Assembly (NCBI RefSeq): GCF_003955715.1
Contig: NZ_CP034463.1
Coordinates: forward strand, 9,548,001 to 9,612,000
Source of the DNA: Streptomyces aquilus
GTDB taxonomy: Bacteria; Actinomycetota; Actinomycetes; Streptomycetales; Streptomycetaceae
Reading direction: 5' to 3'
Length of the DNA: 64,000 bases
The notes beneath the pieces are model-generated. The model was not told where the DNA came from. It was given only the letters and a program-made list of their open reading frames with translations, and did not search any database. The translations under genes were made by a program, and so were the position numbers. Shown here in pieces: positions 8,614 through 23,498 of this stretch; within the stretch, counting starts at the first letter, position 1; every line of letters begins with the position of its first letter.

Positions 8614-9453
8614 TCATGTCATGACCGCGTGCAGCCCTCCGTCGACATGCAGGATCTCGCCGGTGGTGGCCGGCAGCCAGTCCGACAGGAGCACCGCGCA
8701 GGCCTTCGCCGTCGGCTCCGGGTCGTGGACGTCCCAGGCGAGCGGCGGGCGGGTTCGCCAGATCTGCTCCATGCGATCCACGCCGGGGATCGAACGCGCG
8801 GCCAGGGTGCGGACCATGCCCGCGGCGACCAGATTGACGCGGATGCGGCGTTCGCCGAGGTACAGGGCCAGGTAGCGGGTGACGGACTCGAGTGCGGCCT
8901 TGGAGACGCCCATCCAGTCGTAGCCGGGCCAGGCCAGCGCCGCGTCGAAGTCGAGGCCCACCACGGACGAGCCTTCCTCCATCAGCGGAAGGCACGCCGT
9001 GACCAGGGCCTTGAGGGAGTACGCCGACACCTCCAGCGCCGTCGCCGCGTCCGGCCACGAGGTGTCGAGGAAGGCGCCGCCGAGCGCGGACCGGGGGGCG
9101 AACGCGATCGAGTGCACGACGCCGTCGAGACCGCCCAGGTGGCCGGCGACCGCGTCCCGCAGCGTGTCGAGATCCCCGCGCTCGGTGACGTCGAGACGGA
9201 GCACGGGCGCGGGCATCGGCAGCCGCTCCGCCATCGCCTCCGTGATGGGCAGGGCCCGCCCGAAGGAGGTCAGCACCACTCTGGCACCCTCCTGCTGGGC
9301 GATCCGCGCCACGTGGAAGGCGATCGAGGTGTCGGAGAGCACCCCGGTGACCAGCAGCCGCTTCCCGGCGAGCAGCCCGCCCGTCGGCCGGGCGGCCCCG
9401 GTCGACGGGTCGGCGCCGTCCTCGGCCCTGGTGTCCGGTGCCGCCGTGCTCAT
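8614..9453 (-). CDS. Enoyl-ACP reductase, FabI/InhA-like
   Basis: A 279-residue short-chain dehydrogenase of the enoyl-ACP reductase type. The catalytic Y178-x6-K185 spacing (GYDWMGVSKAALES) is the FabI/InhA spacing rather than the Y-x3-K of ordinary SDRs, and the following NLVAAG...RTLA segment closely resembles mycobacterial InhA. It should reduce trans-2-enoyl-ACP with NAD(P)H. A 25-residue low-complexity N-terminus precedes the Rossmann fold. The ATG overlaps the stop of the FabG-like gene as ATGA. It is the last gene of the operon, a second copy presumably separate from housekeeping fatty acid synthesis. Confidence 0.88.
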   Translation of the reverse strand: MSTAAPDTRAEDGADPSTGAARPTGGLLAGKRLLVTGVLSDTSIAFHVARIAQQEGARVVLTSFGRALPITEAMAERLPMPAPVLRLDVTERGDLDTLRDAVAGHLGGLDGVVHSIAFAPRSALGGAFLDTSWPDAATALEVSAYSLKALVTACLPLMEEGSSVVGLDFDAALAWPGYDWMGVSKAALESVTRYLALYLGERRIRVNLVAAGMVRTLAARSIPGVDRMEQIWRTRPPLAWDVHDPEPTAKACAVLLSDWLPATTGEILHVDGGLHAVMT

Positions 9454-10160
9454 ACGCCCATCCCGAGACCGCCGCTGACGGGGATGAACGCGCCGGTGAT
9501 GTACGACGCGTCCGCACTGGCGAGGAAGCGCACCACGTTCGCCACCTCCTCGGGAGTGCCGGGGCGGCCGAGCGCCGTCATGGAGAGGTACTCGGCACGC
9601 CGCTTCGGGCTGACGGCCGCCACCATGTCGGTGTCGATGAACCCGGGCGCCACCACATTGGCCGTGATGCCGCGCCGCCCCAGCTCCCGGGCGAGCGAGC
9701 GGGCCAGGCCGGTGAGACCCGTCTTGGAGGCCGCGTAGTTGGCCTGCCCCGGGGAGCCGAGCATTCCGGAGAAGGACGAGATGAACACGAGCCGGCCCCA
9801 TCGGCCTTCCAGCATCCCGGGGACGGCGCGCCGCGCCGACCGGAACGCGCCCACCAGATTGGTGTCGAGGAGTTCCAGGAAATCCTCGTCGCTGGTCTGG
9901 AGGGCGAGCTTGTCCCGCATGATCCCGGCGTTCGCCACCAGGACCTGCACGGGACCGTGCTCGGCCTCGATCTTCTCGTACGCGGTGTCCAGCGACCCGG
10001 CATCGGTGACGTCGCAGCGCACGCCGAAGAAGCCCTCGGGAGGCTCGCCCGACCGGTGTCCGACGGCGACCCGGTCGCCCTGCGCGGCGAAGGCGCGGGC
10101 GATGGCGAGACCGATGCCGCGGTTGGCCCCGGTGACGAAGACGGACCGGCCTTCGGTCAT
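9450..10160 (-). CDS. 3-oxoacyl-ACP reductase, FabG-like SDR
   Basis: A 236-residue classical SDR. The cofactor motif is TGANRGIG (residues 10-17), NAG is at 77-79, and the catalytic tetrad is N101, S129, Y142 and K146 (NYAASK). It should reduce 3-oxoacyl-ACP to 3-hydroxyacyl-ACP. Similarity to MabA/FabG fits the InhA-like partner next door. Its start overlaps the stop of the KAS II gene (ATGA). It is most likely dedicated to the acyl chain built by this operon. Confidence 0.88.
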   Translation of the reverse strand: MTEGRSVFVTGANRGIGLAIARAFAAQGDRVAVGHRSGEPPEGFFGVRCDVTDAGSLDTAYEKIEAEHGPVQVLVANAGIMRDKLALQTSDEDFLELLDTNLVGAFRSARRAVPGMLEGRWGRLVFISSFSGMLGSPGQANYAASKTGLTGLARSLARELGRRGITANVVAPGFIDTDMVAAVSPKRRAEYLSMTALGRPGTPEEVANVVRFLASADASYITGAFIPVSGGLGMGV

Positions 10161-11404
10161 CGTGTGCCTGCTTTCTGGAGGACGAGGACGGCGTTCTGCC
10201 CGCCGAACCCGAAGGAATGGCTCGTCGCGGTCTCGACGCGCTGCTCACGCGGTGCGCCGCTGACGACGTCGAGGTCGATCTGGGGGTCGAGCTTGTCGAG
10301 GTTGGCGGTGGGCGGCACCAGACCGTGCTCGACGGTCAGGGCCGTGTACGCCACCTCGATGGCGCCCGCGGCACCGAGCGCGTGCCCCGTGACGCCCTTG
10401 GTGGAGGTCACCGACGGCCGGCCGACCAGGACCCGGTTGATCAGCTGGGACTCCATCAGGTCGTTCAACTTGGTCGAGGTGCCATGGGCGTTGACGTGGT
10501 CGACGGCCTCGGGGGCGACGTCCGCGTCGGCGAGCGCCGAGCGTAGGGCGCGTTCCACGCCCGCGCCCGCCGGGTCCGGCGCGGAGGCATGATGCCCGTC
10601 GGCGCTGGCCCCGAAGCCCGCGACCAGCGCACGGACCGTGCCGCCTCGCGCTGTCGCGTCCCGCTCGCGCTCCAGGACCAGCACGGCAGCCGCCTCCGCG
10701 GCCACGAAGCCGCCGCGGTCCGCGTCGAAGGGGCGCGACGCTCCCGCCGGGTCCTCGGTCCGCCGCGACAGTGCGCCCATGCGGTGGTAGGCGGCCATCG
10801 GGGTGGGGCTGAGCGGTGCCTCGGAGGCACCGGCGAGCACGATGTCGCACATGCCGGACTGCAACATCTGCCGTGCGGTGCCGATCGCCGTGACGCCGGA
10901 GGCGCAGGCCGTGGCCACCACGAGGTTCGGGCCGAGCGCCCGGCAGTGCATGGCGAGGTATCCGGAGATCATGTTGACCGGCCAGTTCACCATCACCAGC
11001 GGTGAGACCTGGTCGGGGCCCTCCCGGTGGTACGCGGTGTGGGCGTCCTCGTAGGAGGCGGTGCCGCCCAGCGCGTTGCCCATGACCACGCCGACCCGGG
11101 CGCCGTCCCACCGGTCCGGGTCGAGGCCGGCGTCGGACAGGGCTTCCTGGGCGGCCACCAGGGCGAGTTGGCTGACCCGGTCCAGGCGCCAGGCGGTGGA
11201 GCGGCCGAGCAGGGCGTTGGCGTCGAAGCCGGGAACCCGGCAGGAGATGTCCACCGGGAGTCCGGCGAGCGCCGGGTCCCGCTGTGCGGTGGGGCGGCCC
11301 GACAGCAGCCGCTCCCAGTTCGCCGTCACCCCGATGCCGGCCGGGGTGACGAGTCCGATGCCCGTGATCGCGACGGGTGCGTCCCGTCCGGCGAGCTCGG
11401 CCAT
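10157..11404 (-). CDS. 3-oxoacyl-ACP synthase II (KAS II, FabF-like)
   Basis: A 415-residue elongating ketosynthase. Active-site residues are complete: C167 (TACASG), H307 (NAHGTS), K336 and H341 (TKGVTGHALGAAG). It condenses malonyl-ACP with acyl-ACP. All residues for decarboxylative condensation are present, so it is not a chain-length-factor partner. The ATG at 11404 overlaps the ACP stop by one base (TGATG). Type II polyketide KS-alpha proteins look similar, but no CLF, aromatase or cyclase is present, so a fatty-acyl role is more likely. Confidence 0.9.
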   Translation of the reverse strand: MAELAGRDAPVAITGIGLVTPAGIGVTANWERLLSGRPTAQRDPALAGLPVDISCRVPGFDANALLGRSTAWRLDRVSQLALVAAQEALSDAGLDPDRWDGARVGVVMGNALGGTASYEDAHTAYHREGPDQVSPLVMVNWPVNMISGYLAMHCRALGPNLVVATACASGVTAIGTARQMLQSGMCDIVLAGASEAPLSPTPMAAYHRMGALSRRTEDPAGASRPFDADRGGFVAAEAAAVLVLERERDATARGGTVRALVAGFGASADGHHASAPDPAGAGVERALRSALADADVAPEAVDHVNAHGTSTKLNDLMESQLINRVLVGRPSVTSTKGVTGHALGAAGAIEVAYTALTVEHGLVPPTANLDKLDPQIDLDVVSGAPREQRVETATSHSFGFGGQNAVLVLQKAGTR

Positions 11405-11655
11405 CAGGCGTTCCCCGCCGCCGTGTTCACCAGCTCGAAGAGGTCCGAGACGGTGCCGCTGCTGTTGAGGTCCTCGGTCGGTATCACCACACCGAGCTGC
11501 TTCTGCAGGGTCAGCGCGACCTCGATGAGCGCGAGCGAGTCCAGTTCGATGTCCTCGAGAACGGTGTCGGGCTTGATGTCGTCGCGCAGGACGCCGAACT
11601 TCTCTTCCAGGACCTGGGAGAGGATCTCGAAGGTGGGGGGCACGAAGGTGCTCAT
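11404..11655 (-). CDS. Acyl carrier protein
   Basis: An 83-residue carrier protein with the phosphopantetheine attachment motif D39-S40-L41 (ELDSLALIEV) and the usual acidic helix II. The ATG at 11655 follows an AAAGG ribosome-binding site; an open frame continues upstream but covers the tandem-repeat gap. The ACP presumably tethers the growing chain for the KAS III, KAS II, FabG-like and InhA-like proteins of the same operon and may hand it to the AfsA-like protein. Confidence 0.92.
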   Translation of the reverse strand: MSTFVPPTFEILSQVLEEKFGVLRDDIKPDTVLEDIELDSLALIEVALTLQKQLGVVIPTEDLNSSGTVSDLFELVNTAAGNA

Positions 11656-11716
11656 GGTGAAGGTGCCTTTCGGGTGGGGGCACCCGGCTCGGGCGGGCCG
11701 GGGTGAGGGTGTGAAC

Positions 11717-11839
11717 GTGCTGGTGTGACGGGGGCGTTGACTGCTCCCGGTGTCGATGTGCTGGCGTGACGGGGGCGTTGACCGCTCCCGGTGTCGACGT
11801 GCTGGTGCGACCGGGGCGTTGACCGCGTCCGATGTCGAC
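11717..11839. repeat. Three tandem 41-bp repeats between ACP and KAS III genes
   Basis: Units at 11717-11757, 11758-11798 and 11799-11839 begin GTGCTGG and end TGTCGA(T/C). They are nearly identical and fill most of the 194-base gap, the only large gap in the operon. With no internal gene, the array probably acts as an mRNA spacer or came from slippage. It could tune ACP expression relative to upstream genes. Confidence 0.85.
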
Positions 11840-11849
11840 GTGCCGTCGG

Positions 11850-12848
11850 CTACGCGGACTTCAGCGCGGGCCAGGTCAGTGCCGTGGCTCCCCAGGTGGC
11901 GCCGCCTCCGAAGGCGGCCAGGACGACACGGGCGCCGGGGGTGAGCTCTCCGGTCTCGTGTGCGTGGGCCAGGGCGAGCGGGATGGAGGCCGCCGCCGTG
12001 TTGCCGACCCGGTCCAGATGGATCACCAGCCGCTCCACGGGGATGTCCAGCTGCTCCGCGACAGCGTGCAGGATGCGCAGGTTGGCCTGGTGGCCGACCA
12101 GCCGGTCGACGTCGTCCGGCTGCCATCCGGTGTGGGCGAGGGCGGCGCGTGCCGATTCGGTCATCCGGGTCACCGCGTGCCCGAACACCTCCCGGCCGCG
12201 CATGGAGAAGTAACGGTCGGCCGGATCGGCGTCGGGATGCGGGCGGGGTTGCTCGGAGCCGCCGGCCCGCACCGTGATCAGGTCGGCGAGCGAACCGTCG
12301 CTGCCGAGCACGATCCGGCCGAGGGCGCCGGGCTCACCGGGCTCACCGGCGCGCAGTACCACGGCGCCCGCACCGTCGCCGAACACGACGGCGCTGGAGC
12401 GGTCCTGCGGGTCGATGAGGGTGCTGAAGGCCTCGGCGCCGATGACGAGGACCTGTTCGGCGGCCCCGGACGCGATCATTCCGGCGGCGGTGGTGAGTGC
12501 GTAGAGGAAGCCCGTGCAGACGGCGGAGACGTCGAAGGCCGGGCGTCCGGTGAGGCCGAGGCGGCGGGCCACCTCGGGGGCGGTGGCCGGACAGGGGCGG
12601 TCGGGCGTGGTGGTGGCGAGCACCACCGCGTCGACGTCCGCGGTGCCCGCCGACTGGAGGGCCCGCGCCCCGGCCTCGGCGGCGAGGAGGGAGGTGGGCA
12701 TGCCGGCGGAGACGAAGTGCCGGGTACGGATGCCGGTGCGGGTGCGGATCCATTCGTCGGAGGTGTCCATACGGGCGGCGAGGTCGTCGTTGCCGACCAT
12801 GTCGGGCGGCAGCCAGGCGCCGATGCCGCTGATGACGGCCGCGGTCAC
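11850..12848 (-). CDS. 3-oxoacyl-ACP synthase III (KAS III, FabH-like)
   Basis: A 332-residue initiating ketosynthase with the Cys-His-Asn triad C111 (SAVCTGFLYAL), H253 (GHQANLRI) and N283 (GNTAAASIP). It loads an acyl-CoA starter and condenses it with malonyl-ACP. The GTG at 12848 overlaps the HAD gene stop as GTGA. Having its own FabH-like enzyme means the operon can choose its own starter unit. Confidence 0.9.
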   Translation of the reverse strand: MTAAVISGIGAWLPPDMVGNDDLAARMDTSDEWIRTRTGIRTRHFVSAGMPTSLLAAEAGARALQSAGTADVDAVVLATTTPDRPCPATAPEVARRLGLTGRPAFDVSAVCTGFLYALTTAAGMIASGAAEQVLVIGAEAFSTLIDPQDRSSAVVFGDGAGAVVLRAGEPGEPGALGRIVLGSDGSLADLITVRAGGSEQPRPHPDADPADRYFSMRGREVFGHAVTRMTESARAALAHTGWQPDDVDRLVGHQANLRILHAVAEQLDIPVERLVIHLDRVGNTAAASIPLALAHAHETGELTPGARVVLAAFGGGATWGATALTWPALKSA

Positions 12849-13546
12849 GGGCGGCCTCCCGGGGCGACGACGGCCGGGCCGGTGCTTGCCGCGCCCGCGG
12901 TGATCAGCGCCTCGACCCTCGCCGTGACGTCCGCGGCGTCGGTGAAGAGCACGGCGTGCCAGCCGGCCTGCGCGGCGCCCGCGCAGTTGACCGCGAGATC
13001 GTCGACGAGCACACACTGCTCGCCGGGCACCCCGGCCCGCTCGGCGGCCCTGCGGAAGATCTCCTGCTCGGGCTTGCGGCAGCCGGACTCGTACGACAGC
13101 ACCACCGCGTCGAAGAGTCCCTCGGGCGGCACGGCCAGCCGCCAATGCCGGTCCCAGGCGGGCGGCATGTTGGACAGCAGCCCGACGAACACTCCCTGCC
13201 GGCGCAGCCGGTGCAGGGTGTCCAGCCAGGGCTGGTTGACCGCGCGGTCGGCGAACCAGCGGGCGGGGTAGTCGCTGAGGTCGACGTGGATGCCGCTGTG
13301 CGTCGCGAGTACCTCCTCCATCCGGCGTTCCCAGGTCTCCTGGGTGAGCAGCGGGGTGTCGAGGGGTGCCATGACGTCGTCACCGGCCCCGCAGTCGCGG
13401 GCCACCTGACGCATCGCGGCGAGGAGCGTGGCCGAGGGCACTCCGAGCCGGGCGCAGAAGGGCTCCAGCGTCTCGGCCACCGGCGGGGTCAGCACGCCGC
13501 CGTAGTCGGTCCAGACCGCGCGCACCGGCCCGGTCGAGGGCGCCAT
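12845..13546 (-). CDS. HAD-superfamily phosphatase-like hydrolase
   Basis: A 233-residue HAD protein. Motif I is WTDYGGVLT: the nucleophilic Asp is present but the second Asp of DxD is replaced by Gly, as in some class IA variant-3 HADs. Motif II (LLSNMP), motif III Lys (GCRKPEQEIF) and motif IV (VDDLAVN) are present. The ATG overlaps the stop of the AfsA-like gene by one base (TGATG). In gamma-butyrolactone and methylenomycin furan pathways a HAD phosphatase removes phosphate from the AfsA/MmfL product, so this pairing is suggestive. The missing second Asp may mean a changed reaction. Confidence 0.8.
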   Translation of the reverse strand: MAPSTGPVRAVWTDYGGVLTPPVAETLEPFCARLGVPSATLLAAMRQVARDCGAGDDVMAPLDTPLLTQETWERRMEEVLATHSGIHVDLSDYPARWFADRAVNQPWLDTLHRLRRQGVFVGLLSNMPPAWDRHWRLAVPPEGLFDAVVLSYESGCRKPEQEIFRRAAERAGVPGEQCVLVDDLAVNCAGAAQAGWHAVLFTDAADVTARVEALITAGAASTGPAVVAPGGRP

Positions 13547-14514
13547 CAGTGCTCCTCCGCGATGCCGACGGCGATCTCGCTGACGACGATGCCGTCCTGC
13601 CGGAAGCGCACGGCGACCTCGTCGCAGCTGTGGCGCACGGCGGCGACCCGGACCGGGGCGTCGAGTTCGGCGAACCGGGCGAACCTCGACCGGTAGCCGG
13701 TGATCCGCACGCCGGTGCCCGCCGCGAGGAGCGCGGCCTGCCGGGCGGCCTCCATGAGGATCATCGCCGTGTAGTGGTCCTGCGGGTGATCGAAGTGCGT
13801 ACGGTGCCCGGACGGCACCGCCACCACGGCGGACACCCCGCCGGCCACGTGGCGGGCGTCGGCGAGTGCCACGTTGGCGGGATCGCGGCGGGCCACGTCG
13901 GCGGGCGGCACGGGGGTGCCGGGCGGCACGGCGGGCAGCGCATCGGACAGCGGGGGCGCCGACCTGCGGTGGTAGCGGCGGACGAGCTCCGCCTCCTCCG
14001 CGGGCGAGTAGCGGGCGGAGATGTCGCAGCGGCCGAGGAACGTGTCACCGAGCGAGAGCTCCATGACGTACCGTGCGGCCCGTACCGTCCCGGAGCGGAC
14101 CTGGCTGCGGGTGACCGCGGCCTTGATGTCCAGCTCGCGGGGCCGGTCATGGGGCGGGAGCGGGGTGTCGCCGGTGAGGGCGAGCGTCCATTCGGTGACG
14201 TGGAAGGCGCTGTCCCTGGCGACGTCGAGGCCGCGGTGGGCGATGCAGGTGGCGAACTGCCGGCAGCACTCCAGCAGGAGCATGCTGTCGGGGCGGTCGG
14301 CGGCCGGGCCTGTGTGGTCGCCGAAGTAGTAGTGTGCGGGCGGCAGTTGGGCCGCTGCCAGGTAGGTGTCCGCGGACCGGTCGGCGTAGTCGGTGAGGAA
14401 GACCTCGCTGACCGCCCAGCGGTGGACGTCCGCGCGGTCGACCGTGCGTCGGTAGGAGAGGGTCGGAGCGGCGGTGGCCGCGTCCGGGGCGAGGGCGCTC
14501 TGGGGGAGGGGCAT
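13546..14514 (-). CDS. AfsA-family double hotdog protein
   Basis: A 322-residue protein with two A-factor-biosynthesis hotdog domains. The first has FGDH and LLLECCRQ (about 65-86); the second has DHPQDHYTAMILMEAARQ (242-259). AfsA/ScbA/MmfL enzymes join a 3-oxoacyl chain to dihydroxyacetone phosphate, the key step of gamma-butyrolactone and furan signal synthesis. The ATG at 14514 has an AAGGAG site 9 bases upstream, and the gene is first in the operon. Unlike known signal loci, it is co-transcribed with ketosynthases, ACP and reductases. Because the operon has no FabZ-like dehydratase, a hotdog dehydratase role is an alternative. Family is sure; reaction is not. Confidence 0.88.
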   Translation of the reverse strand: MPLPQSALAPDAATAAPTLSYRRTVDRADVHRWAVSEVFLTDYADRSADTYLAAAQLPPAHYYFGDHTGPAADRPDSMLLLECCRQFATCIAHRGLDVARDSAFHVTEWTLALTGDTPLPPHDRPRELDIKAAVTRSQVRSGTVRAARYVMELSLGDTFLGRCDISARYSPAEEAELVRRYHRRSAPPLSDALPAVPPGTPVPPADVARRDPANVALADARHVAGGVSAVVAVPSGHRTHFDHPQDHYTAMILMEAARQAALLAAGTGVRITGYRSRFARFAELDAPVRVAAVRHSCDEVAVRFRQDGIVVSEIAVGIAEEH

Positions 14515-14935
14515 CGTGTGCTGCTCCTTGGGCAGTGGCCGGGCTCGTGGCTCACATTCTTCGAACGCCGGACAGCCGTCAGCCAGAGCGTTCTGCCACC
14601 TGTGCGGCTCATACCCTTGAAATCGGTACCAGTTACCCGGGGGTGAAACGCCCGCTCCGCCCTGCTTTGCGCCCGTTGACAGATCCCCGCGTCCTGTCGA
14701 CGACACCTCGGCGGCGGGACAGACGGCTGCCGGCGACCGGAGCCGCCACCGGAAGTCACGTCAGGGTGGTGCAGGGCTCAGGGGTATCACACCCACCACG
14801 CCCCACCCTTTGATTTCGTGCACGATGGTCATCCGGCGTGCACCGGCCCCATGAGCCGACGGAGCGCCTTCTTCTCCCTCACCCCACACCCGTACACCCC
14901 TACCCCGCACGCCCGTTCCCCCGAACGCAGGAGGT
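14515..14935. promoter_or_regulatory. Divergent promoter region, AfsA-like operon and flavin hydroxylase
   Basis: A 421-base gap without a convincing gene, lying between divergently read units. It holds a 10-bp palindrome TCGTGCACGA at 14816-14825 and a weak TACC-N9-GGTA symmetry near 14612-14628 that recalls half-sites of gamma-butyrolactone receptor elements. I see no clear -35/-10 pair and no receptor gene nearby. The region should drive both units. Confidence 0.45.
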
Positions 14936-16438
14936 GTGACGCTCACCGTGGACAGCGAAGCACTGGTCGTCGGCGCAGGGCCGACCGGCCTGATGATGGC
15001 CACCGAGCTGCTCCGCCGCGGGATCGACACCAGAATCGTCGATCGCGCGGCCCGAAGGAACCCCCATGCAAAGGCGATTGTCCTCCAGCCGCGCGCGCTG
15101 GAGGTGATGGCCCGCCTCGGCCTGGAAGAACGCATCCGCGACGCGGCCCTGCCGCTCGTCGCCGCCAACTACTACACCCGCGGCCGCCGCGTCGCCCGTA
15201 TCAACTTCCGCGGCCTGAAGGGCAGTCGCTTCGGCACCCCCCTCTCCCTCCCGCAGAACGAGACCGAGGGACTGCTGCTCGAAGCGCTGCACGAAGCGGG
15301 CGGCCGGGTCGAGTACGGACACCGGCTGACAGGCCTGACGCAGGACGCCGACAGCGTGGCGGCCGACCTGTCGGGGACCGCCCACCGCACGGGCCGGCTG
15401 CTCGGCTGCGACGGTGCCTACAGCGCGGTCCGCGAGCAGCTCGGTGTCGCTTTCACGGGGCCGACCTACCCCCAGTCGTTCGTCCTCGTCGACGGGGAGT
15501 GGGAGACCCCGCTCGCCCCTGCCGAGGCGCACTACTTCATGGGCCCCGCGGGCGTGCTGGTCGTCGTCGGTCTCCCCGGTGGCCTCATACGTGTCTTCGG
15601 CAGCGCCCCCGAGGGCGCCGGCGAGGAGAACGTCGAGGAGACCGTCCGGGCGATCGCCGCCGAGCGCAGCCCGGTCCCGCTGCGGCTGGCCTCCGTCGCC
15701 GGCGCGGGGCACTTCCGGGTGCACCGCAAGATGGCCGACCGGTTCCGCCAGGGGCGGGTGCTGCTGGCGGGCGACGCCGCGCATGTGCACAGCCCGGCGG
15801 GCGGGCAGGGTCTGAACACCAGCATCCAGGACGCGCACGAAGCGGCCTGGCGCCTCGCCGACGTGATCCGCGGCCGGCTGCCGGAGACCGCGCTCGGGGC
15901 GTGGGAGCGCGAGCGCATGCATGTCGCGCGAGCCGTGGTCACCGACACCGACCGGCAGACCCGGCTGTGGACCTGGGGCGGCTGGCGCGAGCGGGCCCGC
16001 GACCTCGCGGCGTCGGCCGCCGAGCGCAGCGGTGTCCTCGACCGTGTCCTGCCGTCCCGCTTCGCGCAGATGGACCTGCGCTATCCCGCCGAGGGCCCCG
16101 CACTCGGGCCCCTCGGCCCCGGAACGCGGCTGCCGGACATCCCCCTTCCGTCCGGCGGCCGCACCCACGACCTGCTGCGCGAAGGGCGGCACGCGCTGCT
16201 CGTCCTCGCGGGGCACACCCCCTTCGCCGAGCGGGACGTACCCGTCTGCGCGCATCTGGACGCGCGGACCGCGCGCGCCCTGGGCGTACGCCGCCCGGGA
16301 GCCGTGCTCGTACGTCCCGACGGCGTCGTCGCCGCGGCCGCCGCCCTCGCCGACCCCACCGCCCTGCGTCGTCTCGAACAGCTCCTGCCCGCCCGCCAGG
16401 GCGGCTCCGGGACCACCACCTCGACCCATCACCCGTAG
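14936..16438 (+). CDS. FAD-dependent aromatic hydroxylase/monooxygenase
   Basis: A 500-residue group A flavoprotein monooxygenase related to PheA/TfdB and polyketide hydroxylases. It has the Rossmann GAGPTG motif near residues 13-18, the [22 protein letters not shown]-ribityl motif near 280, and a C-terminal thioredoxin-like extension. It hydroxylates an activated ring or enol using NAD(P)H and oxygen. AGGAGGT lies directly against the GTG at 14936; the GTG at 14948 is about 12 bases from it, so the true start may be four codons later. It is divergent from the AfsA-like operon and precedes the aldo-keto reductase by 16 bases, so the two are an operon. Confidence 0.85.
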
Positions 16439-16454
16439 CCCACGAGGAGAAGGC

Positions 16455-17453
16455 ATGACCACCACCACACCGCACATCCTCGGCCGCGTTTTGCTCGGCG
16501 GCCGCCTTGAGGTGTCCGCGATCGGCCTCGGCTGCATGGGCATGGCCGAGTTCTACGGCGACCGCGACGAAGCCGAGTCGATCCGCACCATCCATGCAGC
16601 CCTGGACCGGGGCATGGACTTCCTCGACACGGCGGACATGTACGGCGCCGGCCTGAGCGAGGAGATCGTCGGCCGCGCGCTGGCCGGCGGCCGGCGCGAC
16701 CGGGTCACGCTCGCCACCAAATGCGGTCTGATCAGGACCCCCGACGGCGTACGGGTCGACGGCAGCCCTCGGCACATCGCCCAGGCCATCGATGCCAGCC
16801 TCAAGCGCCTGGGCACCGACCACATCGACCTGTACTACCTGCACCGGGTCGACCCGCAGGTGCCCGTGGAGGAGTCGGTCGGCGCCATGGCGCAGCTCGT
16901 CGCCGCCGGGAAGGTCCGGCACCTGGGGCTCTCCGAGGCCGGTTCCAAGACGATCCGCGCCGCGCACGCCGTGCACCCCATCACGGCGGTACAGACGGAG
17001 TACTCCCTCGCCAGCCGCAACCCCGAGCGCTCGGTGCTGCCCACGGTCAGGGAACTCGGCATCGGCTTCGTCGCCTACAGCCCCTTCAGCCGCGGGCTGC
17101 TGTCCGGCGAGCTCTCCGGGGCCGAGCTGGCCCCGGACGACATGCGGCGCGGTCTGCCCCGGTTCTCCGAGGACAACCTCGACGTCAACCAGCGGCTGGT
17201 CGCCAGGATCGGCGAGCTGGCGTCCCGACTGGGCTGCTCCCCGGCGCAGTTCGCGCTCGCGTGGCTGGTCGCGCAGGGGGTCGTACCGATCCCGGGGGCT
17301 CAGAAGCGCACGCACATGAACGAGAACGCCTCCGCCGGAGCCGTCACCCCGACCCCCGAAGTGCTGCGGGAGGCCGACGAGATCGCGCCGCCCGGTGCCT
17401 TCGCCGGCGAGCGGTTCCCCGAGCACCTGCTCGCCATGGTCCAGGAGGACTGA
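16455..17453 (+). CDS. Aldo/keto reductase
   Basis: A 332-residue NADPH-dependent reductase with the aldo-keto reductase tetrad: Asp and Tyr in LDTADMYG, Lys in LATKCG, and His in YYLHR. It resembles the class that includes AKR13-type and pyridoxal/aldehyde reductases. The ATG at 16455 has a GAGGAGAAGG site. A much longer open frame upstream reads through the hydroxylase gene and is not real. It is probably co-transcribed with the hydroxylase and acts on its product or on a carbonyl intermediate. Confidence 0.9.
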
Positions 17454-17455
17454 GA

Positions 17456-17506
17456 ACACGAGGAAGGGGCCCGGTGCGATCGGCGCACCGGGCCCCTTCC
17501 TCGTGT
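17456..17506. terminator. Bidirectional terminator, 23-bp perfect stem
   Basis: Arms 17456-17478 and 17484-17506 pair perfectly around a 5-base loop (ATCGG). The hairpin sits between the convergent aldo-keto reductase and SDR genes and can stop both, since the ends of the stem are AC/GT-rich on each strand. Confidence 0.93.
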
Positions 17507-17516
17507 CCGTCGTCCG

Positions 17517-18383
17517 TCACCAGGACGTGCCGCCCGCCCGTTCCGCGGGCGCGATGAGCTGGTCGGTGAGGGAGGTGAGCCGCTGCTGAATGTCGGCGCT
17601 GTAGGCGAGACGGTGAGCCTTGGCCCGCCGGCTCTCGTTGTAGTACTGGCCGCTCGCGCCCCGTGCGCCCTCGTCGAGGGCGTGCAGTACGGCCGCTGTT
17701 CCCTCGGCCACCGAGGACCAGGGGCGCACCCCGGCCTCCAGGACCATCGTGGTGTCCATGTAGTTCGCGGGGTGCACGCAGTTGACCCCGATGCCGTCGC
17801 GGGCGTACTCCTCCGCGATGGTGAACGTGAAGGCGGCCAGTGCGAACTTGCTGCGGGTGTACGCCTCCATGCCGTCGTAGCGCCGGGTGAACTGGACGTC
17901 GTCCGGGTCGACGGGGCTCTGCCCGATCGAACCGATGTTGAGCACCTGGGCCGTACCCGCCGCCCGCAGGGGTGAGCGCAGCGCGCGGGTGAGGACCACC
18001 GGCGCCAGGTAATTGACGGCCAACCGCAGTTCGTAGCCGTCCCGGCTCAGTTCGCGGCGGCGTGCGTCACGCCCCGCGCCCACGCCCGCGTTGTTGACGA
18101 GCAGTCCCAGCGAGGGGTGGTCGGCGGCCACCCGCCGGCCCAGTTCGGCGGCCTCCTCCAGCGAGGCGAGGTCCGCGACGTACGGATGGGCCGTGCCGCC
18201 CGCCGCGCGCAGCTCGTCGACGACGGTGGCGCACTTGTTCTCGTCCCTGCCGTGCACCAGAACGGTCCAGCCCCGGTCGGCGAGGGCCCGCGCGAGGCTC
18301 CGGCCGAGACCGGAGGTGGCCCCGGTGACCAGGGCGGGGGCGCTCGGCGGCAGCTGTCGTGCTGAGCGCTCGTGTCGGCTCAT
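17517..18383 (-). CDS. SDR-family oxidoreductase
   Basis: A 288-residue classical/extended short-chain dehydrogenase, similar in layout to retinol-dehydrogenase-like bacterial SDRs. It has TGATSGLG for the cofactor, NNAG, a Ser in NIGSIGQ, and the YTRSK (Y-x3-K) catalytic motif. The ATG overlaps the cupin stop as ATGA. It is the last of three minus-strand genes starting with the phosphotriesterase-like protein. A reductase is needed to finish butyrolactone-type products, so it is a candidate for that step, by inference only. Confidence 0.85.
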   Translation of the reverse strand: MSRHERSARQLPPSAPALVTGATSGLGRSLARALADRGWTVLVHGRDENKCATVVDELRAAGGTAHPYVADLASLEEAAELGRRVAADHPSLGLLVNNAGVGAGRDARRRELSRDGYELRLAVNYLAPVVLTRALRSPLRAAGTAQVLNIGSIGQSPVDPDDVQFTRRYDGMEAYTRSKFALAAFTFTIAEEYARDGIGVNCVHPANYMDTTMVLEAGVRPWSSVAEGTAAVLHALDEGARGASGQYYNESRRAKAHRLAYSADIQQRLTSLTDQLIAPAERAGGTSW

Positions 18384-18721
18384 GAGTTCGGTCCTTCCTC
18401 CGGCGCGCTGGGCGTACGGAGTTCGATGGCGACCATGACGAGAGTCCGGTCGGAAAGGTTGTGGACGTAGTGCCGCATGGGCAGGTGTTCGCCGCGGTTG
18501 TGCACGACCTGTCCGGTCTCCAGCGACACCGCTTTGATCAACTCGCCGTTCTCGTCCAGGGATTCACCGTGCGCCCCGGAGAGCACGACGGTCACCCAGG
18601 GGTGGCGGTGGGTGTGGGCGGGCCGCTGCTCGCCGGGGGGCACGGTCTCCACCCAGCACTTGACGTGCTCGTCGTCGATGAGCAGCTCGGCCCCCAGCTC
18701 CTCCCAGGGCTCAAGCGGCAT
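18380..18721 (-). CDS. Small single-domain cupin protein
   Basis: A 113-residue cupin with the metal-site pattern AHTHRHPWVTVVLSG, followed by a second part containing LPMRHYVHN. Three His residues (HTHRH) plus a later His could bind a metal. Such small cupins act as isomerases, oxygenases or sensors. The start lies 11 bases inside the end of the phosphotriesterase-like gene, indicating coupling. No specific reaction can be assigned. Confidence 0.8.
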   Translation of the reverse strand: MPLEPWEELGAELLIDDEHVKCWVETVPPGEQRPAHTHRHPWVTVVLSGAHGESLDENGELIKAVSLETGQVVHNRGEHLPMRHYVHNLSDRTLVMVAIELRTPSAPEEGPNS

Positions 18722-19751
18722 CCCGCGCCTCCGTCCGCGCGTCGGCGGGGCGGGGCGCGGCGATCCGCGAGAGCAGCCGCCGGGGGTTGTCGACCAGCAG
18801 GGTGCGCACGGTCCCCTCGTCGACGCCCGGCTCTTTGAGCAGGAGGGGCAGGACGCGCTCGAAGAGATGCACGTAGCTCCAGCCCGGGTAGGTGCGTTCG
18901 CGCTGCTCGACCGTCAGGTAGTCGATGTGCACGGGGTGATCCTGCGAGACGAGCAACTGGGCCGTGTGGCCCGCCCGGACGAGCGCGGCCAGGGTGGCGT
19001 TGCGCTGCTCGTCGGGGGCGAACGGGGTCATGCCGTAGCGGTCGTAGCCGAGGACGCAGCCGGTGTCCGCGAGGGCGCGCAGGCCGTTGAGGTCGGCCGA
19101 GTCCCCGGCATGCGCGACGACCACGGAACCCGCCGCGACGCCCTCCTTCTCCAGGAGCCGCACCAGGTGGACGCCGTTGCCCTCGAACGGGTCGCAGTGC
19201 ACCACCACGGGTACGCCGGTGTGCCGGTGCACCTCGGCGACGACGGCGGCCATCCGGTGCGCCGACGCGTCCGGCGGGGTGCGCTCGCAGGCGAACTTCA
19301 CCAGGCCCGCCCGGACTCCGCTATCCGCGATGCCGGTGGTGACGTCCCGCAGCAGCAGCTCGATCAGCGGGTCCTCCGCCTCGATGGCGGCGCCGGGGCC
19401 CCGGAAGCGGGCGAAGAGCGGTATGCCGTCGACGCTGTAGACACCGGTGGCGAGCACGATGTTCACCGCGGTGCGCTCGGCGACCGCACGCACCAGGTTG
19501 ATGTCGCGGCCCTGTCCGAGCACCGTCATGTCCACCAGGGTCCGCACCCCGGCCGCGTAGGCCTCCTCCAATTGGCGCACGGCCTCGCGCACTCCGGCCT
19601 CACGGTCCCACAAGTGGGGGAAATTCGACTGGAATTCGGAACTCAGCACGAACAGATGCTCGTGCGCGAGCGTGACACCCAGGTCCGCCGCGGCGACCGG
19701 CCCGCGCACCGTCGGTACCGGGTCGTGCGGGAGGGGACTTTCCATACGCAC
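18711..19751 (-). CDS. Phosphotriesterase-family metal-dependent lactonase/hydrolase
   Basis: A 346-residue amidohydrolase-fold protein with the complete binuclear metal set of the phosphotriesterase family: H30-x-H32 (LAHEHLF), carbamylated K152 (VKFACE), H185, H214 and D271. Family members include phosphotriesterase-like lactonases that open acyl-homoserine and gamma-lactones. The GTG at 19751 sits 9 bases after a GAGG site; the ATG at 19745 is a close alternative. It leads an operon with a cupin and an SDR, a few kilobases from the AfsA-like gene, so turnover of a lactone made there is an attractive idea. Substrate is unproven. Confidence 0.88.
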   Translation of the reverse strand: MRMESPLPHDPVPTVRGPVAAADLGVTLAHEHLFVLSSEFQSNFPHLWDREAGVREAVRQLEEAYAAGVRTLVDMTVLGQGRDINLVRAVAERTAVNIVLATGVYSVDGIPLFARFRGPGAAIEAEDPLIELLLRDVTTGIADSGVRAGLVKFACERTPPDASAHRMAAVVAEVHRHTGVPVVVHCDPFEGNGVHLVRLLEKEGVAAGSVVVAHAGDSADLNGLRALADTGCVLGYDRYGMTPFAPDEQRNATLAALVRAGHTAQLLVSQDHPVHIDYLTVEQRERTYPGWSYVHLFERVLPLLLKEPGVDEGTVRTLLVDNPRRLLSRIAAPRPADARTEARDAA

Positions 19752-19979
19752 AGACAACCGCCTCGGAATATCGGAACAACCGGAAGGGCGCCGGGCAGGT
19801 CGATGCACCCGACAGCAATCCATGGTGGCCCGCTCGCGAAGGCCTAACCAGGTGGTGTTCCAACTAGCATGAAACTTCGTCTCCCTGCCTCTGGCGTCGG
19901 CTGACAGCCTCGTTTCAGGCCGGGCGGTCATCTCCGCCGGCCGCTACGCATCCCGTTCGCTCGTCACCAGGAGACAGCC

Positions 19980-20705
19980 TTGTCCACTTCCCCCTCTTCC
20001 CTTTCCGGTGCCCGTGTCGTGGTGATCGGCGGCTCGTCCGGCATCGGCAAGGCGGTGGCCCGGCAGGCCGCCGCCGCGGGCGCGCAGGTTGTCGTCGGCT
20101 CCCGCTCCCAGGACAAGCTGGAGCAGACCGCCAAGGAGATCGACGGCATCACCACCGGTGTCGTGGACGTGACCGACGAGGAGAGCGTCGCCGCCTTCTT
20201 CGCGGGCATCGACTCCCTCGACCACCTCGTCGTCTGCCCCGGCGACATGGCCGTCGGCTCCGTCTACGACGTGTCCCTCGACTCGGTGCGCGCCGCCCTC
20301 GACACCAAGATCGTCGGTCAGCTGCTGAGCGTCCGGCACGCCGGCAAGAAGATCTCGGGCCAGGGTTCGATCGTGCTGATCGCCGGTGCGGCCGGCTTCA
20401 AGTCGTACGCCGACATGAGCGCGACCGCCGCCGCCAACGCGGGCATCGGCGGCATGGGCCGCTCCCTCGCCGTGGAACTCGCCCCGGTGCGCGTCAACGT
20501 CGTCGTCGGCGGTCTGATCGACACCCCGCTGTGGTCCTTCCTGCCCGAGGACGCCCGCGCGGGCCTCTTCGAGCAGACCGCGCAGAGCACCCCGGTGGGC
20601 CGCGTCGGACAGCCCGACGACGTCGCGGCGACGGTGCTGCACCTGCTGGAGAACACCTTCGTGACCGGCGCGGTGCTGCACGTCGACGGCGGCGGCACGC
20701 TGTGA
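19980..20705 (+). CDS. SDR-fold protein lacking the YxxxK catalytic motif
   Basis: A 241-residue SDR. The TTG start has AGGAG 6 bases upstream. The cofactor motif IGGSSGIGKAVAR is intact and the C-terminus has the usual VTGAVLHVDGGG. Aligning the RSLAVELAP helix places T139 and N143 where catalytic Tyr and Lys belong, and the Ser position is also lost. It may bind NAD(P)H without classical SDR chemistry, or use Y133. The stop overlaps the MFS start (GTGA), so it is coupled to an exporter and a flavin oxidase. Confidence 0.85.
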   Translation: MSTSPSSLSGARVVVIGGSSGIGKAVARQAAAAGAQVVVGSRSQDKLEQTAKEIDGITTGVVDVTDEESVAAFFAGIDSLDHLVVCPGDMAVGSVYDVSLDSVRAALDTKIVGQLLSVRHAGKKISGQGSIVLIAGAAGFKSYADMSATAAANAGIGGMGRSLAVELAPVRVNVVVGGLIDTPLWSFLPEDARAGLFEQTAQSTPVGRVGQPDDVAATVLHLLENTFVTGAVLHVDGGGTL

Positions 20706-21970
20706 GCGAGGCGGCGCACGGCGGCGCGACGGGCCTGGCAGGGCCCGTCGCGCCGCCGCGGCCGCCGGTCGGCCGGATCACCGTGCTGCTGCTCGCGGCC
20801 GCGTGCGGTCTGTGCGTGGCCAACCTCTACTACCTCCAGCCGATCCTGCCCGAGCTCGCGGCCTCGCTGCACCGCACGCCCGGCTCGCTCACCTCGTCCG
20901 TGTCGGCCACTCAGTTCGGTTACGCCCTCGGCCTGTTCGCGTTGGTACCGCTGGGCGACGCCGTCGACCGCAGACGGCTGCTCACCGCTCTGGTGGCCAC
21001 GGCGGCCGCGGTGCTCGCGGTGATTCCCTGCGCCGACGGCGGGCTCCTCGTGGGCCTGTTCTTCCTGCTCGGCCTGGTGAGCGTCGCCGCCATGGTGATC
21101 GTTCCGCAGGCCGCGGGCATGGCACCGCCGGAGCGGCGCGGGCAGGTGGTGGGCACCGTGATGACCGGTGTCATCCTCGGCGCGCTGCTGTGCCGGACCT
21201 TCGCCGGCGTGGTGGCCGAACTCGTGGACTGGCGGGCCGTGTTCTGGGGGGCGTCGGCCCTGATGCTCGGGGTGGGCGTGATGCTGCGCCGCATCCTGCC
21301 CCCGCAGCCCGCCGGGACACCGCTGACCGTGCGCGGGTACGCGGTGCTCATCGGCTCGCTGTTCTCCCTGCTCCGGGCACGGCCGGTGATCGTGGAGCGC
21401 TGCCTGTACGGCGCCCTGGGATTCGCCGCCTTCACCGTGCTGTGGACCGCCGTGCCGCTCCGCCTGATCCAGGGGCCCTATCACTACGGCTCGGCCGCGA
21501 TCGGCGCGATGGGGCTGCTCGGTGCGGGGGGCGCCCTCGGCGCCAACCTGGCGGGCCGGTTCGCCGACCGGGGGCGTCAGCGGACCGTCAGTGCCGCCGC
21601 GTTCGCGCTCATCACGGTGTCGTTCGCCGTGGTGTCGGTGCTGTCGTCCTCGCTGCTCATGCTCGGCACGGCGATCCTCCTGATCGACTTCGCGGTCCAG
21701 GCCGCGCACATCTCCAACCAGACGACGGTCTTCGCCCAGGTCGGCGACGAGATGCGCAGCCGCGTCACGACCGTCTACATGACCTGCTACTTCCTCGGCG
21801 GGGCAGCGGGCTCCGCGCTGACGGGTCCCCTCTGGGCGCACGGCGGTTGGCGGGACACCGCCCTGCTCGGCAGTGCCGCGGGCGCCTGCGCCCTGCTCCT
21901 GCTCCTCGGCCGCGCGGCGGTGCGCCGCACGGCGACCTCACGAAAGGCGATGGCGGCCATCGATGACTGA
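20702..21970 (+). CDS. MFS transporter, probable drug/metabolite exporter
   Basis: A 422-residue major facilitator protein with 12 predicted helices. The first helices carry NLYYLQPILPEL and LGDAVDRRRLL, the latter being the conserved MFS loop 2-3 motif. It resembles 12-helix drug:proton antiporters of the YnfM/YdhP type. The GTG start overlaps the SDR stop. Downstream it overlaps the flavin oxidase by 8 bases. Export of a product made or modified by the neighbouring genes, or self-protection, is likely. Confidence 0.88.
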   Translation: MSEAAHGGATGLAGPVAPPRPPVGRITVLLLAAACGLCVANLYYLQPILPELAASLHRTPGSLTSSVSATQFGYALGLFALVPLGDAVDRRRLLTALVATAAAVLAVIPCADGGLLVGLFFLLGLVSVAAMVIVPQAAGMAPPERRGQVVGTVMTGVILGALLCRTFAGVVAELVDWRAVFWGASALMLGVGVMLRRILPPQPAGTPLTVRGYAVLIGSLFSLLRARPVIVERCLYGALGFAAFTVLWTAVPLRLIQGPYHYGSAAIGAMGLLGAGGALGANLAGRFADRGRQRTVSAAAFALITVSFAVVSVLSSSLLMLGTAILLIDFAVQAAHISNQTTVFAQVGDEMRSRVTTVYMTCYFLGGAAGSALTGPLWAHGGWRDTALLGSAAGACALLLLLGRAAVRRTATSRKAMAAIDD

Positions 21971-23498
21971 CATATCCGATCCCGTCGTGGCTGTACCCGT
22001 AATCCCGGACCAGGGCATCTCGGCGATCACCCCCGCCGACCCCCGCTACCTGTCCCTCACCACGCGCTCACGCAACACGCGCTTCACCGGCCGGCCGGAC
22101 CGGGTCCATGTGCCGCGTACCGCCGAAGAGGTGCGCCGGGCCGTGGCCGCCGCCGTCCGCGACGGGGCGCGGCTCGCGGTGCGCGGCGGCGGCCACGGTC
22201 TGGAGGGCCTGGTGGACGATCCGGCGGTGCGCACCCTCATCGACCTGTCCGAGCTCGACGACATCACGTACGACGAGGGCCGGGCGGCCTTCGGTGTCGG
22301 CGCGGGCGCGCTGCTCGGCTCCGTCTACCGCTCCCTGTACCTGAACTGGGGTGTGGCCCTGCCCGGTGGCACCTGCCCCTCGGTCGGACTCGGCGGTTAT
22401 GTCCAGGGCGGAGGCTTCGGCGCGCTGTGCCGACAGCACGGGCTGATCGTCGACCACTTGGAGGCGGTGGAGGTCGTCGTCGCCGACAGCGCGGGGGAGG
22501 CCCGCACGGTGGTCGCCTCCCGGTCGCCCTCCGACCCGTACCACGATCTGTGGTGGGCGCACACCGGCGCCGGCGGCGGCAACTTCGGTGTGGTCACCCG
22601 CTATTGGTTCCGCTCCCCGCAGGCGGACTCGGACGCCCCGCGGGATGTGCTGCCCCGGCCTCCGAAGACGGTCCTGTTCGCTTCGGCGGAGTGGCCCTGG
22701 GAGTCGCTGAGCGAGCGGGACTTCGCCACGCTCGTCCGCAACCACGGCGACTGGCACAGCACGGAGGACGTCACGGACCCCACGTACGAGAGTCTGTACA
22801 GCGCGCTGTACCTCAACCAGCGTGCGGTCGGCCGGATCACCCTCAGCGCGCAGCTGGACGCCTCGGATCCCGGCGCCCGCGGCCGGCTGGAGGAGTACGT
22901 CGCCGCCGTGGGCAGCGGCGTAGGGGCCCCGTGCCGGATCACCTACACGCAGATGCCCTGGCTGCGGGCTACGCAGCGGGACGTGGAGAACAGGGGAGAG
23001 CTGACCCGCTCCAAGAGCAAGGGTGCCTATCTGCGCAGGCCGTACGCGGCCGCCGAGACGGAGCTGCTCTTCCGGTATCTCTCCGCCCCGGACTACGACG
23101 GTCATACCACGGTGGTGCTGTTCTCCTACGGCCGGAAGGTCAACACCGTGGACCCCGCGGCCACCGCGGTCGCGCAGCGGGATTCGGTCCTCAAGAGCTA
23201 TCTGGGCACCTATTGGACCGATCCCGCCGACGACGAGCGGCACATCCGCAGACTCCGGGAGCTCTACCGGGACTTGTACGCGGAGACAGGCGGAGTACCC
23301 GTCTCCGACGCACGCACCGACGGCTCGTACATCAACTATCCGGACGTGGATCTGGCCGATCCGCGCTGGAACACCTCAGGCGTTCCCTGGAACACGCTGT
23401 ACTTCAAAGGGAATTACCCCCGACTCCAGCGGGTCAAGGCCGTCTGGGATCCGCGGAATGTCTTCCGGCACGCTCTGTCGGTACGGGCGTCCGACTGA
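21963..23498 (+). CDS. Berberine-bridge-type FAD oxidase, bicovalent flavin
   Basis: A 511-residue FAD-linked oxidase of the BBE/aclacinomycin oxidoreductase group: PCMH-type FAD domain (about 45-220) and a C-terminal BBE segment (WNTLYFKGNYPRLQRVKAVWDP). H78 (RGGGHG) and C138 (GGTCPSVGLGGY) are at the positions that give the bicovalent 8-alpha-histidyl, 6-S-cysteinyl FAD of this family. Such enzymes oxidise sugars or alcohols, or form C-C bonds in secondary metabolism. It is the last gene of the SDR-MFS operon. Its 3' end overlaps the opposing XRE gene by 123 bases. Confidence 0.9.
   Translation: MTDISDPVVAVPVIPDQGISAITPADPRYLSLTTRSRNTRFTGRPDRVHVPRTAEEVRRAVAAAVRDGARLAVRGGGHGLEGLVDDPAVRTLIDLSELDDITYDEGRAAFGVGAGALLGSVYRSLYLNWGVALPGGTCPSVGLGGYVQGGGFGALCRQHGLIVDHLEAVEVVVADSAGEARTVVASRSPSDPYHDLWWAHTGAGGGNFGVVTRYWFRSPQADSDAPRDVLPRPPKTVLFASAEWPWESLSERDFATLVRNHGDWHSTEDVTDPTYESLYSALYLNQRAVGRITLSAQLDASDPGARGRLEEYVAAVGSGVGAPCRITYTQMPWLRATQRDVENRGELTRSKSKGAYLRRPYAAAETELLFRYLSAPDYDGHTTVVLFSYGRKVNTVDPAATAVAQRDSVLKSYLGTYWTDPADDERHIRRLRELYRDLYAETGGVPVSDARTDGSYINYPDVDLADPRWNTSGVPWNTLYFKGNYPRLQRVKAVWDPRNVFRHALSVRASD

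Follow-up and report, generated by a model that had tools for sequence, protein, structure and literature searches.

Seven open reading frames, all on the minus strand and free of internal stops, span positions 8614–14514 of the 64-kb stretch of DNA analyzed here (the window), and Pfam and NCBIfam profiles backed the type of each encoded protein. The most upstream gene specifies an AfsA-type double-hotdog protein (13546–14514; PF03756 matched twice), a putative butenolide or γ-butyrolactone (GBL) synthase. It is followed by a HAD-IA family phosphatase (12845–13546; PF00702, and TIGR01509 above cut-off), which counts the YihX phosphatase among its nearest solved chains and is a candidate for dephosphorylating the AfsA product. 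Next come a KAS III for chain initiation (11850–12848; TIGR00747 and NF006829 above cut-off; Cys111/His253/Asn283), an acyl carrier protein (ACP; 11404–11655; PF00550; DSL serine 40), a KAS II for chain elongation (10157–11404; NF005589 above cut-off; Cys167/His307/His341), a FabG-type 3-oxoacyl-ACP reductase (9450–10160; NF009466; Ser129/Tyr142/Lys146), and an InhA/FabI-type enoyl-ACP reductase (8614–9453; NF005908; Tyr178/Lys185). We take the residues given for the last five proteins to be their catalytic motifs, which are intact in the window.

The InhA-like protein scored 393.6 bits on NF005908 (enoyl-ACP reductase FabI; cut-off 299) and the FabG-type protein 223 on NF009466 (cut-off 222), with the top-scoring model of the latter, mycolic FabG1, below its own cut-off; the ACP was above the Pfam cut-off for PF00550 and below every NCBIfam ACP cut-off. 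An earlier reading of this locus from the DNA letters alone (the sequence-only reading) had placed initiation, elongation, carrier, and both reductions beside the AfsA-like gene. Profile matches for all five cassette proteins bear this out, the type II fatty acid synthase (FAS) parts found being KAS III, KAS II, ACP, ketoreductase (KR), and enoyl reductase (ER). That reading had also spoken of seven coupled genes: all seven are present and typed, but they form two coupled blocks of three and four genes, because a 194-bp gap separates the KAS III and ACP genes (all other neighboring ORFs overlap by 1–4 bp).

A conserved cluster of 16 genes

The region 8614–14514 makes up about 37% of a conserved 16-gene cluster (8614–24362); the operon described earlier thus holds for its seven genes, whereas the cluster genes at 14936–24362 had been missed. 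A divergent promoter region (14515–14935) with two inverted conserved sites—GATACCCCTGAG (14783, minus strand) and CATACCCTTGAAA (14610, plus strand)—separates the AfsA gene from plus-strand genes for an FAD monooxygenase of the aromatic-hydroxylase type (14936–16438; PF01494, PF21274) and an aldo/keto reductase (AKR; 16455–17453; PF00248). On the minus strand follow an SDR oxidoreductase (SDR2; 17517–18383; PF00106), a cupin (18380–18721; PF07883, 28.0 against a cut-off of 27.2), and a hydrolase of the phosphotriesterase (PTE)/PTE-like lactonase family with putative lactonase activity (18711–19745; PF02126). The ORF of this hydrolase opens at 19931, its conserved part starting near 19745, and the nearest solved chain is 4if2, a phosphotriesterase homology protein; H90, H92, K212, H245, H274, and D331 (long-ORF numbering) are all present, presumably representing the six positions of the binuclear metal-ligand pattern of the family. 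Further plus-strand genes encode another SDR oxidoreductase (SDR3; 19980–20705; PF13561), an MFS transporter (20702–21970; PF07690), and a BBE-type FAD-linked oxidase (21963–23498; PF01565, PF08031). The cluster ends on the minus strand with an MmyB-like regulator (23376–24362) combining an Xre-type HTH and an MLTR ligand-binding domain (PF13560, PF17765), for which a comparison with solved structures returned one weak HTH match only (E 0.09).

Among the 16 cluster proteins, no Pfam match pointed to a malonyltransferase, a FabA/FabZ/MaoC dehydratase, or a thioesterase, and none of the nine MaoC matches in the genome falls within the window. Since the cluster has no recognized dehydratase or malonyltransferase gene, the cassette is only partly private, and the earlier description of a complete private assembly was overstated.

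The AfsA subfamily was found in nine genomes including that of the window, and the seven-gene order in 9/9, with the same orientation in all eight others (L008–L014, L019; in draft L008 the KAS III gene is split over two frames, and in L012 the AfsA gene is cut by the contig end). Comparison with three of these eight genomes yielded dN/dS values of 0.11–0.43, indicating purifying selection on all genes measured. Together, the retained order and orientation and these ratios argue that the arrangement does not reflect chance. The stable linkage between a chain-building cassette and an AfsA-type gene is thereby confirmed, and the check that had been proposed, namely conserved co-occurrence of afsA-like and ketosynthase genes in related strains, was passed in 8/8 other genomes. 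The 15 genes from BBE to InhA were retained in all six loci long enough, the MmyB-like regulator in both loci reaching that far (L019, L020), and both [CG]ATACC sites in the seven window-family intergenic regions compared. ABC-transporter genes past InhA occur in only two of eight genomes, which is why we set the cluster border at InhA. In these counts L020 and L013, both 25,106 long with identical matches, were entered once; L017 and L018 are pieces of L019 and L020, and L015, with a 30% identical AfsA, lies outside the window family. One carrier of the cluster is S. antibioticus DSM 40234 (L009). Literature searches, in a collection lacking most subscription journals, showed no paper on this cluster among the titles listed.

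The AfsA-type protein and its clade

The AfsA-like protein matched PF03756 over two stretches (116.6 bits; cut-off 24), and this was its only Pfam family at E ≤ 0.001, AvrD not being matched; on the NCBIfam ScbA_BarX equivalog it reached 177 bits, under the cut-off of 200. Conserved residues comprise H61, E82, R85, H247, E255, and R258. Two E-x-x-R-Q motifs, E82/R85 and E255/R258, are intact throughout the window family; across 40 sequences E82 and R85 are invariant and E255 and R258 at least 90% kept. We take E78, E240, and R243 of ScbA to be the counterpart catalytic residues. In sister cluster L054 the AfsA no longer has the second motif, and in L033 its Arg is missing; KAS-linked AfsA proteins thus do not retain the motif without exception.

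An AlphaFold model (pLDDT 89.8) shows a double hotdog with hotdog-type neighbors in the PDB and resembles polyketide synthase (PKS) dehydratase domains and acyl-ACP thioesterases to a similar degree; the structure alignment comprised 39 of the 62 homologs found. A second comparison with VIA-align placed mitoribosomal chains first, followed by thioesterases and dehydratases, with no AfsA structure among the matches listed, and a PDB sequence search returned no AfsA relative, only weak matches to unrelated proteins. In the classical AfsA reaction, dihydroxyacetone phosphate (DHAP) is the C3 partner, and the protein is a putative butenolide/GBL synthase that would condense a 3-oxoacyl thioester with DHAP.

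In the AfsA tree, 31 rows, including every row with KAS III and KAS II neighbors, split from nine rows at 100/97. A ScbR-like gene occurs in eight of the nine loci of the latter clade, and the window AfsA lies outside it. Two ScbR queries gave no tblastn match (E ≤ 1e-4) in the window or the window-family loci, a negative result confined to these sequences. The cluster thus shares with A-factor/SCB-type loci the AfsA family and its motifs, whereas these loci have a ScbR-like receptor nearby and belong to the other AfsA clade. The same genome carries another AfsA (L045) beside ScbR-like genes of 29–32% identity; within the ScbR-linked clade, L080 has KAS II-type genes 5–7 kb from its AfsA. With two AfsA queries, two further loci (L086, L087) showed no match, and they are absent from the tree; the receptor scan found a weak partial match in L086 and none in L087.

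Sister clusters and the origin of the cassette

A second cluster in the same genome, at C1:4.81 Mb, comprises AfsA, phosphatase, monooxygenase, PTE-family hydrolase, cupin, SDR, BBE, and regulator genes and no fatty-acid genes. In 392 sampled genomes of the genus, eight places pair this PTE type with AfsA: three have all five chain genes, one has four (without InhA, and with KAS III about 10 kb away), one has KAS III alone, and three have none. This gradation suggests that a recurring AfsA core draws its chains either from primary metabolism or from a type II FAS cassette plugged in beside it. Because the AfsA proteins of the fatty-acid-free clusters (L046, L056, L057) are not sister to that of the window, the same core with and without the cassette may have come about by convergent gene content and not by a straightforward gain or loss. 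AfsA genes with both KAS III and KAS II also occur amid other gene sets (L033, L035–L038, L091). We rejected PTE as a general pathway marker, given that 18 of the 26 PTE places of the genus search (L064, L069, L073, and L074 being on short contigs) have no AfsA match within about 10 kb.

We likewise rejected the idea that the cassette was recently copied from the housekeeping fab operon: the cassette KAS genes group with those of other AfsA clusters, apart from the presumed housekeeping pair (L051), in trees for which the program warned of long branches (L044, L040). The KAS III–ACP–KAS II order recurs in the same genome at C1:3287513 (L089; 64/38/60% identity), where the neighbors, judged by eye, are diiron-oxygenase-like and flavin-reductase-like ORFs and do not look housekeeping. 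The genome has one other InhA locus (L090), with which FabG–InhA is collinear; the InhA there, the sole further match at E ≤ 1e-20, is 56% identical (C1:2620964).

A proposed pathway, its rivals and its relatives

Taken as a whole, the 16-gene cluster is probably best explained as building its own chain, which AfsA would turn into a lactone or furan for subsequent tailoring and export; it looks like a new metabolite pathway rather than a classical hormone system. The individual reactions and their sequence, the C3 partner, and the regulator ligand are all inferred. The KAS III–ACP–KAS II–FabG–InhA cassette would build an ACP-bound saturated chain with a malonyltransferase and a dehydratase borrowed from primary metabolism, and the last condensation, left unreduced, would give a 3-oxoacyl thioester. 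The AfsA-type protein may then offload this chain onto a glycerol-type C3 phosphate to form a butenolide or furan phosphate, from which the HAD phosphatase would strip the phosphate. This step is in line with the published gladiofungin model, which has the same AfsA-plus-phosphatase logic for a carrier-bound chain, with a separate phosphatase proposed (PMC7756420). Ring or chain could then be altered by the FAD monooxygenase, AKR, SDRs, and BBE oxidase; opening or editing of the lactone is the probable task of the PTE-family hydrolase, and the MFS protein would export the product, while the MmyB-like regulator may respond to an acyl ligand, perhaps the cluster product itself.

An autoregulator system, with the cassette providing a strain-specific acyl chain for a diffusible GBL-type signal, strikes us as rather unlikely. 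AfsA family membership and the presence of an MmyB-like regulator with a ligand-binding domain speak for it, as does the fatty acid held in the crystal by MltR, a relative of this regulator (PMC3406030). However, the AfsA score falls under the ScbA/BarX cut-off, a separate AfsA beside ScbR-like genes exists in the genome (L045), ScbR-like matches number zero in the window and window-family loci compared with eight of nine in the ScbR-linked clade, and the cluster holds nine more genes for tailoring, export, and regulation; these last two points leave the dedicated signal once suggested for this locus unsupported. It is quite improbable that the operon makes a plain fatty acyl chain for the tailoring enzymes, with the AfsA-like double hotdog serving as the dehydratase that the cassette lacks: KR and ER are present, a dehydratase is unrecognized, and the model resembles dehydratase domains as much as thioesterases, but the window family retains both AfsA-type motifs, and L046, L056, and L057 keep AfsA and phosphatase without fatty-acid genes to dehydrate for.

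We regard as very improbable an enol-phosphotriester pathway of the cyclophostin/salinipostin kind, in which a long chain would join an AfsA butenolide phosphate as a phosphate ester and the PTE-family protein would be the matching hydrolase. The PTE-family gene is indeed present in 6/6 window-family loci long enough, and bicyclic enolphosphates have been reported from S. antibioticus DSM 1951 (PMC6681047), a different strain from the cluster-bearing DSM 40234; against this, a HAD phosphatase adjoins AfsA, no fatty acyl reductase or phosphate-ester-forming enzyme was recognized among the cluster proteins, and PTE also accompanies AfsA in clusters without chain genes. Hardly any weight falls on KAS II and/or InhA as self-resistance copies of fatty-acid-synthesis targets inhibited by the product. 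This would fit the exporter and the single other InhA (56% identical) in the genome, yet one resistant target gene would be enough, whereas the whole set including ACP, KAS III, and KR stays together, and the cassette KAS genes group with those of other AfsA clusters rather than with L051.

Among known systems, the small salinipostin (spt) operon reportedly also combines an AfsA-type synthase with chain genes of its own; its nine genes are not known to include PTE, FAD monooxygenase, or BBE. Like our cluster, methylenomycin biosynthesis (mmyA/mmyC/mmyD) provides a butenolide synthase with a dedicated ACP and KAS III and has flavin enzymes (PMC12593393), and an MmyB-type regulator (PMC3406030). 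It differs in that MmyD is AvrD-like with a proposed pentulose substrate and, in the available part of the source, KAS II/KR/ER elongation is not among the described steps (PMC12593393); the furan hormone there comes from separate mmfL/P/H genes. The sphydrofuran island GI-9 of S. ambofaciens shares a butenolide synthase, ACP, KAS III, a KAS-family protein, FAD monooxygenase, aldo/keto reductases, a phosphatase-family protein, and MFS, but its synthase is of the AvrD family and its phosphatase a histidine phosphatase, with enoyl reductase, PTE, cupin, and BBE absent from the printed table (PMC11195616). What the window cluster has in common with this type is thus an ACP and KAS III beside a butenolide synthase, and not the AvrD-family synthase. 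The gladiofungin (gla) trans-AT PKS resembles our proposal in that an AfsA domain transfers a chain from its carrier to a C3 unit; it differs as a modular PKS in Burkholderia with AfsA as a PKS domain (PMC7756420). A dedicated carrier or synthase beside a butenolide synthase already has precedents in methylenomycin, sphydrofuran, and gladiofungin, contrary to the earlier claim that known loci borrow their chains (PMC12593393, PMC11195616, PMC7756420).

If the proposed pathway is correct, AfsA enzymes of a clade distinct from the ScbR-linked one would be chain-offloading catalysts of metabolite pathways, a caution against taking every AfsA gene for a hormone locus in genome mining. Tentatively, and with more doubt than conviction, we extend this to an actinomycete pathway family with an AfsA–phosphatase–monooxygenase–PTE core, in which a plug-in type II FAS cassette would set the acyl chain, an AfsA-derived lactone (or lactone phosphate) would be the native substrate of the PTE-family hydrolase, and the MmyB-like regulator would sense the acylated product. 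A pathway-bound PTE/lactonase would bear on the natural role of such enzymes, and the clusters with none, one, four, and five chain genes, two kinds of which reside in one genome, amount to a natural experiment on whether the cassette sets the chain.

Gene order and conservation

A sequence check located seven minus-strand ORFs without internal stops at window positions 8614–14514, where the sequence-only reading had placed them, and profile searches agreed with its naming of their families. In transcription order, they encode the AfsA-like protein (13546–14514), a HAD phosphatase and KAS III, followed after a 194-bp gap by ACP, KAS II, FabG and an InhA-like enzyme. Their description as coupled genes holds for neighbors overlapping by 1–4 bp, but not between KAS III and ACP. 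The catalytic motifs of these families are present in every enzyme checked.

A contig scan with the AfsA-like query recovered eight loci, seven belonging to the same subfamily (64–96% identity). After removal of duplicates, nine genomes including the window's own carry this subfamily. Gene order and orientation across the seven genes are identical in all nine, bearing out the conserved co-occurrence. Within the 16-gene cluster (8614–24362), the fifteen-gene stretch bounded by the BBE oxidase and InhA recurs in 6/6 loci of sufficient length, as does the MmyB-like regulator in both loci reaching that far. The next genes past InhA, for a sugar-type ABC transporter, are common to two of eight loci, which places the end of the cluster after InhA. 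By a simple Nei-Gojobori count (four loci, three genomes), dN/dS was 0.11–0.43 for all genes measured, the regulator being measurable in two loci.

Within the genus, 3/392 genomes harbor the subfamily (E ≤ 1e-60; window's own included). It was not seen outside the genus in a class-wide sample or another actinomycete family: the former yielded AfsA-like matches in 11 of 394 genomes (E ≤ 1e-35; besides the window's, all ≤45% identity), the latter in 4 of 341 (E ≤ 1e-55; at most 46%). Protein databases hold relatives at 45–56% identity, one from a Krasilnikovia. A 40-row AfsA tree split nine rows from 31 at 100/97. ScbR-like matches occurred at eight loci of the nine-row side (the ninth is an 11.7-kb contig) and in 3/31 rows of the other, namely two that had themselves supplied the ScbR queries and one with a weak partial match; the receptor scan found none in the nine window-family rows.

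A putative carrier-bound route and its accessory genes

In the published gladiofungin model (PMC7756420), an AfsA domain offloads a carrier-bound chain onto DHAP, and a phosphatase is the candidate for the last step. The window likewise combines a carrier-bound chain, AfsA and phosphatase, albeit as discrete proteins; by the same logic, a private ACP-bound chain may pass to the AfsA-type protein and then to the phosphatase. InhA in the cassette argues for at least one full reductive cycle. The claim of complete chain assembly stands for KAS III, ACP, KAS II, FabG and InhA, but Pfam matches of the cluster proteins revealed neither dehydratase nor malonyltransferase; both would hence be supplied from elsewhere, unless the AfsA protein dehydrates. 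The latter has a double-hotdog fold (predicted model; structure comparison) and keeps both E-x-x-R-Q motifs. The motif should not be read too strictly, though: the AfsA of L054 has lost the second E and R, and that of L033 the second R.

The remaining genes encode an FAD monooxygenase, an aldo/keto reductase, two SDRs, a cupin, a phosphotriesterase (PTE)-family hydrolase, an MFS transporter, a BBE oxidase and an HTH-MLTR regulator. Going by family membership, oxidation and reduction steps may follow, the PTE-family protein may open the lactone, and the transporter and regulator may provide export and control. The nearest solved chain to this hydrolase is 4if2, a phosphotriesterase homology protein, followed by chains named aryldialkylphosphatase. 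Its ORF (18711–19931) runs on without a stop through 19745–19931, ahead of the conserved start; since the first ~50 residues match as a separate piece in L009, L014 and L019, the gene probably starts near 19745. Among cluster ORFs, only those of PTE (counted over the full 18711–19931) and the regulator (23376–24413) contain a TTA codon, one each, making bldA dependence possible.

The regulator's family includes MmyB. Its relative MltR was crystallized with a fatty acid bound, the authors calling its natural ligand unknown (PMC3406030). The divergent AfsA/monooxygenase promoter carries two inverted [CG]ATACC sites (14610 and 14783) in 7/7 loci compared, a candidate operator of the cluster regulator.

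Precedents and related clusters

The sequence-only reading had known gamma-butyrolactone or methylenomycin-furan loci borrowing their chains from primary metabolism, which is not supported: in methylenomycin biosynthesis (PMC12593393) and in an island of S. ambofaciens, linked to sphydrofuran in a figure legend (PMC11195616), the butenolide synthase is accompanied by an ACP and a KAS III of its own, though it is AvrD-type rather than AfsA-type as in the window. What appears new is therefore the combination of an AfsA-type synthase, a type II FAS cassette of five genes that includes an enoyl reductase, a PTE-family hydrolase and an MmyB-like regulator. Our literature search found no paper on the cluster, weak evidence as most subscription papers lay outside its reach. 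Salinipostin is reportedly an AfsA case.

The PTE query hit 26 places in 21/392 genomes of the genus; the eight best-scoring are those within AfsA clusters. Three of these eight (G000, the window's genome; G267; G120) hold all five chain genes. L054 has KAS II, ACP and FabG beside HAD-AfsA, with KAS III ~10 kb off and no InhA found; in L055, KAS III was the sole chain gene found, and in L046, L056 and L057 none was. Chain-building capacity thus varies around a recurrent tailoring set. L046, the second AfsA locus of the window's genome (G000:C1:4803000-4818000, ~4.81 Mb), encodes relatives (31–49% identity) of the regulator, SDR2 (17517–18383), PTE, cupin, HAD, monooxygenase, AfsA and BBE, while searches with the window proteins found no KAS, ACP, FabG or InhA matches; L056 and L057 hold relatives of this cluster. 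The AfsA proteins of fatty-acid-free clusters are not sister to the window's in the tree, so the cassette may have been gained, lost or swapped.

In a class-wide sample, PF03756 occurred in 12/98 genomes (20 loci by our count). Both KAS III and KAS II relatives lay within ~5 kb of AfsA at three loci (the window, G013:4.68 Mb and G013:0.15 Mb), a KAS III relative ~2 kb away at a fourth (G000:5.61 Mb), and an InhA relative nearby only in the window. At least one KAS-type neighbor was present at 9/11 non-window places, a biased set picked by similarity to the window's AfsA. Another conserved order, AfsA-(gap)-ACP-KAS II-FabG-KAS III-FabG-FAD monooxygenase, appeared in L033, L036 and L091 from two actinomycete families. 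AfsA genes adjoin one or more KS genes in L032, L034, L040, L043, L092 and L093, where several KS pairs resemble KS-alpha/chain-length-factor; at L043, on an S. goshikiensis plasmid, genes for acyl-CoA carboxylase, HAD and FabG accompany AfsA and KS. The window's genome also encodes a KAS III-ACP-KAS II operon (L089, G000:C1:3283000-3293000; 64/38/60% identical to the window's), whose adjoining ORFs, judged by eye, resemble diiron-oxygenase and flavin-reductase genes.
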